From a virus: 25,128 bases of DNA. The translations under genes and the position numbers were made by a program. The stretch covers positions 1-25,128 of the IMG/VR virus record IMGVR_UViG_3300009124_000094; one strand, given 5' to 3'. Shown one piece after another: positions 9,791 through 11,108 of this stretch. Numbering within the stretch: position 1 is the first letter of the stretch; each line of letters begins with the position of its first letter. Below the pieces are notes generated by a model. It had not been told where the DNA came from and searched no databases. It worked only from the letters and a program-made list of their open reading frames with translations.

Positions 9791-10009
9791 TCACTCTTCT
9801 GCTGCTGGTTCTTCTTCTCTAGCAAGGATTGCTTTTTCAACAACCGCAAGGAGTTGATCGTCCATTTCAGTTTTAGTCAGAGCAACTGCTTTCTTTAAAA
9901 TAAGAAGACAAACTTCAACTAATTTTTCTCCAAGTTCCTCGTTCTCAGGGATCTTGGCAACAGCATCAGAGATAATTTTGGATGCGAGTGGGAGTAAAAA
10001 GGCGAGCAT
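9791..10009 (-). CDS. 72-residue amphipathic protein, unknown function
   Basis: A small protein with a hydrophobic N-terminus (MLAFLLPLASKII), a helix with regular hydrophobics (about residues 25-45, LVEVCLLILKKAVAL) and an acidic tail ending in EEEPAAEE. It could lie on or in a membrane, or form a helical bundle; one true membrane span is not certain. It is bounded by a possible late promoter 25 nt upstream and a strong terminator 20 nt downstream, so it may be a single-gene unit. No family is recognised. Confidence 0.78.
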   Translation of the reverse strand: MLAFLLPLASKIISDAVAKIPENEELGEKLVEVCLLILKKAVALTKTEMDDQLLAVVEKAILAREEEPAAEE

Positions 10010-10032: not shown

Positions 10033-10191
10033 CTATTTATTCTTATTCTTATTCTTATGCTTCCAGGCAGTTGCATAAGCAATAGATTTTTCGTCCTTCG
10101 TTAACTTACCATCCTTAGCATACCCCTTTTTGATATGCTTCACCATTCTTTCAAATTTTTTGCCAGGGGGTGCCTCCTCCTGACTCAATAC
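10033..10191 (-). CDS. C-terminal extension in the -1 frame (probable frameshift product)
   Basis: From the slippery site at 10197-10191 the -1 frame stays open for 52 codons to a TAG at 10035-10033. The encoded segment has a highly ordered sequence (KKFERMVKHIKKGYAKDG, then KSIAYATAWKHK), preceded by APPG and ended by a Lys/Asn repeat. From memory this type of segment occurs as the C-terminal end of longer cyanophage proteins, which fits translation as an extension of the 307-residue protein. As a separate gene it would have to start at an ATG at 10146 (37 residues) with no good ribosome-binding site. A true mutation or a homopolymer sequence error is the main alternative. Confidence 0.65.
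   Translation of the reverse strand, partial: VLSQEEAPPGKKFERMVKHIKKGYAKDGKLTKDEKSIAYATAWKHKNKNKNK
10034..10041 (-). promoter_or_regulatory. Possible late promoter (AATAAATA)
   Basis: The box lies 25 nt before the ATG at 10009, overlapping the stop of the frameshift extension. It is within a repeated AAGAAT coding run, so chance is possible. Confidence 0.4.
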
Positions 10192-10197
10192 TTTTTT
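10162..10197 (-). promoter_or_regulatory. Predicted -1 ribosomal frameshift signal (A AAA AAG plus hairpin)
   Basis: The minus strand reads A AAA AAG at 10197-10191 in the correct phase of the upstream gene (GTA AAA AAG), the same heptamer as E. coli dnaX. After a 6-nt spacer containing the zero-frame TGA region, GTCAGGAGG (10184-10176) can pair with CCCCCTGGC (10170-10162) with one mismatch and one G-U, around a 5-nt loop. The -1 frame enters the 52-codon extension. No clear upstream Shine-Dalgarno-like stimulator is seen. Confidence 0.6.
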
Positions 10198-11108
10198 ACT
10201 TTCTTGCTACCGCCGTCGCAACCACAACCTTCATCTACTGTAGGGCAGCACTCTTTGCCATGCTCAGGACAGTCAGTTCCCTCAGCAGTGGCATTACACT
10301 TTTTTGCTTCTTCAAGACCCATCTCGGATCTCCAGTCGGAACGCTCTTCCTTCTTCATTCCCATTGCTTTACCGATTGCCTTACGACGCTTCATCAAATA
10401 CTTGTCTGATGAATCCTTATCACCGTCATTATCTACATCGCCATCTTCCTTGCCAACGGGATCAAGTTTCTTCTCGTCAAGATCCTCTTCTTTCACGCAG
10501 TTAGGAACAACCTTACCACCTTTATTTTTAGTACCCTTTGCTTCATAACCATCCCAGCACTTGTCAGCACCAACATTCTTTCGTGCTTGCTTCATGCTGC
10601 CTTCAAAAATTCCGCCTCTAGAAAGGTTAGCAACAGCAGCGTCCATCAGTGATGATGTGAACTCATCTGACACTTCCTGCTTGTTCTCAACTTCACCGTA
10701 GCACTCTCCTCCACTAATACCTGAGGCAGTACGTTTGATTAATGATTCTGAATAACTATCGTTGTACATTTCTTTCTGGGTACTTTTTCTTTTATTATTT
10801 ATCATAGTAGACCATTCTGGAGTCTTGATCTTACCATATCTTTCTTTCTTCTGACCAGGAGTAAGATCCTGAAGGTACTCTCTAGTCTCATCAGTGCCGA
10901 GTTCATGAACCTCACTGATGTCAGAAATCCAACTTCTGAATGTCTTATGATTTTCATCTAAGCAGATAACATAGTTTGGTCCACGCCTAATAATAGTGCC
11001 GACCTGATCATTTCCATTCTTTACTTTCATCCCTTCTGGGAAAATCTCATCATTATAATACTGTTCACGGATGTAAACTCTCTGAGTGTATTCTGAAAAG
11101 TTGTACAT
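10185..11108 (-). CDS. Virion-type protein with SH3-like, calcium-loop and Cys-rich segments
   Basis: 307 residues in the zero frame. Residues about 25-68 look like a small beta-barrel (VGTIIRRGPNYVICLDENHKT). Residues 184-204 (CWDGYEAKG to PNC) and 222-236 (DGDVDNDGDKDSSDK, a dockerin or EF-hand-like calcium loop) are followed by KYLMKRRKAIGKAMG. The C-terminal 40 residues have six cysteines (271, 280, 287, 288, 295, 297), possibly metal-binding. Such mosaics occur in cyanophage structural proteins, from memory; function is unknown. The stop lies 3 nt beyond a dnaX-like slippery site, and frameshifting would give a 358-residue form. A late-promoter box lies 23 nt upstream of the ATG. Confidence 0.8.
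   Translation of the reverse strand: MYNFSEYTQRVYIREQYYNDEIFPEGMKVKNGNDQVGTIIRRGPNYVICLDENHKTFRSWISDISEVHELGTDETREYLQDLTPGQKKERYGKIKTPEWSTMINNKRKSTQKEMYNDSYSESLIKRTASGISGGECYGEVENKQEVSDEFTSSLMDAAVANLSRGGIFEGSMKQARKNVGADKCWDGYEAKGTKNKGGKVVPNCVKEEDLDEKKLDPVGKEDGDVDNDGDKDSSDKYLMKRRKAIGKAMGMKKEERSDWRSEMGLEEAKKCNATAEGTDCPEHGKECCPTVDEGCGCDGGSKKVKKY
10796..10803 (-). promoter_or_regulatory. Possible internal late promoter (GATAAATA)
   Basis: It lies inside the 307-residue gene, 27 nt before an in-frame ATG (codon 114, at 10769) that has AGAAAG just upstream. It could give a short form lacking the N-terminal domain. Confidence 0.25.

Follow-up and report, generated by a model that had tools for sequence, protein, structure and literature searches.

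Whether every ribosome that translates a 307-aa protein of a T4-like cyanophage ends at its stop codon, or whether some of them pass into the -1 frame and add a conserved-looking C-terminal tail, is the question raised by the stretch of DNA analysed here (25,128 bases of a virus record, hereafter the window). The window carries T4-like cyanophage genes, including those for DNA polymerase, a uvsX-like protein, a helicase, a mazG-like protein, nrdA and nrdB (named from reading of the translations), and their order is conserved among relatives. The ORF for the 307-aa Lys- and Asp-rich motif protein locates on the minus strand (10185..11108), preceded by a cytidylyltransferase-like gene (PF01467, 11137..11700, minus strand) and followed by a 72-aa gene of phrog_402 (9791..10009, minus strand), a syntenic landmark for the frameshift gene in cyanophages.

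The ORF ends with GTA AAA AAG TAT TGA on the minus strand. The slippery heptamer A_AAA_AAG (10191..10197) is in phase and ends one codon ahead of the 0-frame TGA (10187-10185), which is part of the 6-nt spacer TATTGA (10185..10190). The spacer is followed by a putative stimulatory hairpin, GTCAGGAGGAGGCACCCCCTGGC (10162..10184), with 8 bp, one bulged A and a computed stability of -11.9 kcal/mol. The -1 frame (VLSQEEAPPGKKFERMVKHIKKGYAKDGKLTKDEKSIAYATAWKHKNKNKNK, 10033..10191, stop TAG at 10035-10033) reads K K V L S Q E E A P P G and onwards, adds 52 residues to give a 358-aa fusion, and matches phrog_30733 and phrog_12887. The preliminary description of this DNA had given the same heptamer, spacer, hairpin, ORF sizes and end coordinate, and all of them were recovered. 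The canonical X_XXY_YYZ type of -1 frameshift has a heptamer in this phase, a stimulator at the right distance, here the computed hairpin after 6 nt, and a signal and new-frame ORF that are conserved under selection, and all three were found. Programmed -1 ribosomal frameshifting is the favored reading of the window gene, with a probability of about 85% judged from sequence; the slippage itself and its efficiency are what we infer. Most ribosomes would end the 307-aa protein at TGA. While two lysine tRNAs occupy A_AAA_AAG, a fraction would be stalled by the hairpin that follows after 6 nt, slip one base back to AAA AAA, read V-L-S-Q-E-E-A-P-P-G and add the 52-residue tail, so that the untailed protein would be the major and the tailed one (358 aa) the minor product, in a set ratio.

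A_AAA_AAG is the heptamer of E. coli dnaX, the shiftiest among those compared in E. coli (PMC5009743). The junction had been described as dnaX-like in build, which holds for the heptamer, the short spacer and the 3' stem-loop, but not for the rest. The upstream Shine-Dalgarno stimulator that belongs to the dnaX element is represented in the window by a weak match only (-6.3 kcal/mol), although C3 and most C5 relatives (classes described below) have such a sequence; the shift makes a shorter product in dnaX and a longer one here, and the proteins are unrelated. The Rfam search returned no family at its gathering score, so no curated dnaX element was matched. The window hairpin is also weaker than that of its kin (-16.2 kcal/mol) because of one change in the stem, which reads CCCCCTG where relatives have CCTCCTG. 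Its z score is -1.7 and a fraction of 0.07 of synonymous-codon shuffles was equally stable, and taken alone it is only suggestive as evidence of a stimulator. Besides the 307-aa ORF, just one window ORF of 100 aa or longer has the heptamer in phase at its end; it is antisense and its extension is 11 codons long.

Homologues were sought by scanning with back-translated peptides. Lysine could be either AAA or AAG in these peptides, therefore these scans did not favour the heptamer. The tail (..EEAPPGKKYERMIKHIKKGYAKDGKLTKDEKSIAYATAWKHKNK..) is common in IMG/VR, with 528 matching stretches, and in the best 80 of the 528, which were examined, it is an in-frame part of other proteins, stands as a gene by itself, or follows A_AAA_AAG in the -1 frame. 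The nearest -1 group, class C1, consists of the window, L002, L007, L021, L027, L033-L035, L037 and L038. Its upstream proteins are of three kinds, namely 307-aa relatives, an ORF of 200–235 codons that contains an I-E-V-M-P segment, and an ORF of 616 codons. Despite these differing 0-frame proteins, the lysine codons are AAA AAG in every tailed C1 relative, and the codon ahead of them is GTA, GCA, GGA, GAA or CCA, always with a final A. Most C1 relatives have the hairpin stem unbroken. The pN/pS of eight C1 tails was 0.11 in the -1 frame versus 2.3 one base on, in the 0 frame, and because of this difference the tail is very probably translated in the -1 frame. The conserved look attributed earlier to the C-terminal segment was borne out, and heptamer, tail frame and a hairpin all persist in relatives.

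The other 307-aa relatives that could be read to their end have a plain stop and no tail, and none of the readable ones carries the tail in the 0 frame. These tail-less proteins end with A_AAG_AAG or similar (L003-L015) or with A_AAA_AAA (L016-L020, L023, L025), and A_AAA_AAG was never found at their end. Relatives with one continuous frame and another A count were sought and none was found; in the 307-aa relatives the tail is either in the -1 frame or missing. This bears on the explanation that the preliminary description had ranked as the main rival, a sequencing error in the A6 run or a real mutation. Runs of six A are error-prone on some platforms. On this view the junction is a fault of sequencing or assembly, or the gene has decayed through a true frameshift mutation. 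However, such junctions are present in independent metagenome contigs and in two S-CAM1 genomes, purifying selection acts on the tail in its -1 frame, and no same-frame tailed version of the 307-aa protein was found. Because independent contigs and isolate genomes share this kind of A run, assembly error is out, and error or decay as a whole has a negligible chance of being correct.

The main rival to frameshifting is re-initiation. By this translational coupling, the tail would be a separate protein of ~49 aa, started by terminating ribosomes at a TTG that overlaps the stop (TTGA; TTG at 10188-10186, minus strand), the sole candidate start codon at the junction. Coupling is a real rival because the window TTG is correctly placed over the stop and related phages have ATGA-coupled genes, with a syntenic separate gene of this kind in S-RSM4, S-WAM2, S-H9-1 and Sf-CH1b. 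Re-initiation is formally possible because TTG overlaps the stop at nearly all C1 sites and GTG does so at C5 sites (GTGA in C5 and S-CAM1). However, L027 has CTG at the overlap, and the sites with TAA or TAG (most of C2 and C3, and C4) have GTA, which is no start codon. In C2 and C3 the conserved residues start right at the junction, and the hairpins are placed at a spacing suited to slippage.

All loci were also searched mechanically for upstream stops overlapped by a tail or VEVMP ORF. This gave 72 distinct junctions, every one in the -1 frame. The in-phase A_AAA_AAG was present in all 32 junctions without ATG and in none of the 40 with ATG nearby (Fisher p = 3.5e-21, with shared descent ignored; the counts overstate independence because sites at the locus may share ancestry). 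Coupling fails to predict a heptamer in every ATG-less junction and in no ATG junction, and we regard it as an unlikely account of the window. At the ATGA-coupled junctions L041, L044, L048, L088 and L203, several upstream ORFs end with A_AAA_AAA TGA, itself a slippery run; because A_AAA_AAA stands at the stop of some of the 40 ATG junctions, slippage and coupling may coexist there.

The 32 heptamer junctions, which the frameshifting reading takes as shift sites, fall into classes with unrelated downstream sequence. C1 has the stem CAGGAGG/CCTCCTG, and C2 has A_AAA_AAG TAA with the stem AGGCTTG/CAAGCCT. C3 has GAA AAA AAG TGA or TAA AGAAGCCAGTGG with weak hairpins, and C4 is L107/L260. C5 has long stems, such as TCCGCTTCCGTC/GACGGAGCGGA or GGCACACGTC/GACGGTGTGCC, and C6 is L280 together with Sf-FR1, the latter from the cultured set. 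When later loci were added, 41 distinct sites were obtained, with the heptamer required by construction. Stability was controlled with synonymous-codon shuffles of the -1 frame. The stems of C2, C4, C5 and most of C1 exceeded the stability of the shuffles (z about -2 to -5), and the hairpins of C3 lacked significant stability (z about -1; L269 +1.1). In 12 of the 14 C3 sites, AAGGAGG was found upstream of the heptamer at about 7 nt, slightly below the 9–14 nt given for -1 stimulation by a Shine-Dalgarno sequence (PMC5009743). An AGGAG-like sequence ~11 nt upstream was found in most C5 sites and was absent from most C2 sites. The C5 arms vary among relatives but their pairing persists, and chimeras of 5' and 3' arms lost 4.5 kcal/mol on average and were worse in 88% of 82 swaps. 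The putative stimulators are therefore diverse. Among the stable hairpins at least three are unrelated, and one class combines a weak hairpin with a strong Shine-Dalgarno-like sequence upstream. Related phages would keep the same outcome through these other stimulators, and in further relatives the shift would be replaced by a separate gene that starts with ATG and overlaps the stop of the preceding ORF (ATGA).

The A run itself allows one more explanation. RNA polymerase could gain or lose an A in a run of A6-A7, which would put some mRNAs into the fused frame. Efficient transcriptional slippage usually requires longer A runs, and the run in the window has just 6 A. The conserved phase of the heptamer, its terminal G and stimulators close enough to act on a ribosome are marks of a ribosomal mechanism. 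Transcriptional slippage is used by IS elements as an alternative to ribosomal frameshifting (PMC5009743), but for the window we consider it very improbable.

The phrog_402 gene provided a bait that is independent of the signal. Reading upstream from it, about a dozen of ~60 usable loci had an A_AAA_AAG junction. In all the loci fetched, most of which had been collected on account of the frameshift locus itself, ORFs of 100 aa or more have 1094 distinct ends. Of these, 44 had an in-phase heptamer within the last three codons, and 41 of the 44 had a -1 extension of at least 30 codons, nearly all at the frameshift locus, which goes beyond chance. Transfer as a mobile DNA cassette was considered and rejected, as the checked sites are syntenic and the cytidylyltransferase and phrog_402 genes are present where the locus covers them; the tail and phrog_402 are separated by another gene in L027. 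Recombination at a single locus suffices. Two candidates of the pattern scan, L209 and L211, were unrelated chance matches on inspection.

The scan upstream of phrog_402 also brought up two candidates at other genes. In L376 (~1932), an ORF of ~490–500 aa, from an unrelated gene upstream of phrog_402, ends with A_AAA_AAG TAA, followed by a stem TAGCGAGG..CCTCGCTA (-21 kcal/mol) and a -1 extension of ~170 residues. In L364 (~2181), a 613-aa ORF ends with A_AAA_AAG TCA TAG and has a -1 extension of ~84 residues, which resembles a segment that is in-frame in P-HM2 (L208); L364 is likely another frameshift with a different modular tail.

In cultured phages, the heptamer directly ahead of the stop together with a -1 extension was found in S-CAM1 (for which two separately deposited genome records were read), S-CAM3, Syn1, S-RIM44, Sf-FR1, S-RIM32, Sf-CH11 and S-H9-2. 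An ATG-started overlapping gene was found instead in S-CAM4, ACG-2014h, ACG-2014e, S-RSM4, S-WAM2, S-H9-1 and Sf-CH1b. The databases annotate the heptamer-bearing isolates with two ORFs. In Sf-CH11 and S-H9-2 the M of VEVMP is taken as the first residue of the annotated tail gene; conserved residues ahead of this M would thus be read only by ribosomes coming from upstream. The database starts at L200 (1938-2144) and L292 (2007-2171), in Sf-CH11 an ATG inside VEVMP and in S-CAM1 a GTG adjoining the slippery site, are probably artefacts of the frameshift.

The first ~100 aa of the 307-aa protein match the C-terminal part of phrog_395, a cyanophage cytidylyltransferase family, and the remainder matches phrog_22379 and phrog_4359, families without known function. 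T4-GC190, a cytidylyltransferase cluster of cyanophages, was detected in virions of S-SM1 (PMC3037559), and virions of other cyanophages contained NMNAT-like proteins (PMC9602691). Judged from its neighbours, the 307-aa protein is likely to act in the virion or in its assembly. The tail is basic, ~50 residues long and predicted to form two helices with modest confidence (mean pLDDT 67). The fold search of the tail model against PDB gave nothing significant, the Pfam search gave no match for the 0-frame protein or the tails, and tblastn with the short C3 peptide gave no match, perhaps owing to low-complexity filtering.

Coat proteins are extended by frameshift in T7/T3 gene 10, Lactobacillus phage A2 and the Listeria phages A118, A500 and PSA. 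In contrast, the gene here encodes a different protein of a T4-like cyanophage, and its tail is a basic, predicted helical segment with no Ig-like domain. For CsoS2 of alpha-carboxysomes, frameshifting is reported to yield two isoforms in part of its species (PMC5009743). CsoS2 is likewise a disordered repetitive scaffold protein with frameshift isoforms, but it is a bacterial gene product with a different role, and the likeness carries no claim of homology. The orfA/orfB genes of the IS3 family are also fused by a -1 shift with a hairpin and/or Shine-Dalgarno stimulators (PMC5009743), but the locus here has no transposase and no transposable element. The literature was searched for programmed frameshifting in cyanophages and T4-like Synechococcus phages and no report was found, within a coverage that largely leaves out subscription papers, so that an earlier description is possible; the 2010 paper that compares T4-like cyanophage genomes (PMC3037559) does not use the word 'frameshift' in its main text. 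The best explanation is a new, unannotated case of a known type of recoding, used repeatedly at one locus.

Beyond the window gene, we lean slightly towards the view that T4-like cyanophages use -1 frameshifting repeatedly to dose modular C-terminal tails. The signal would have been re-tooled, or have arisen several times, at one locus with unrelated stimulators, interchanging with ATGA coupling, and would act also in the L364 and L376 genes with other tails. The cultured phages, now annotated with two ORFs or with an ORF that starts at GTG, would have to be re-annotated, and the presence of the locus in these phages makes the frameshift prediction directly testable. T4-like cyanophages are abundant viruses of the ocean, and the ATG-coupled, frameshifted and tail-less versions at one locus form a natural series that would show how recoding signals arise and are exchanged.
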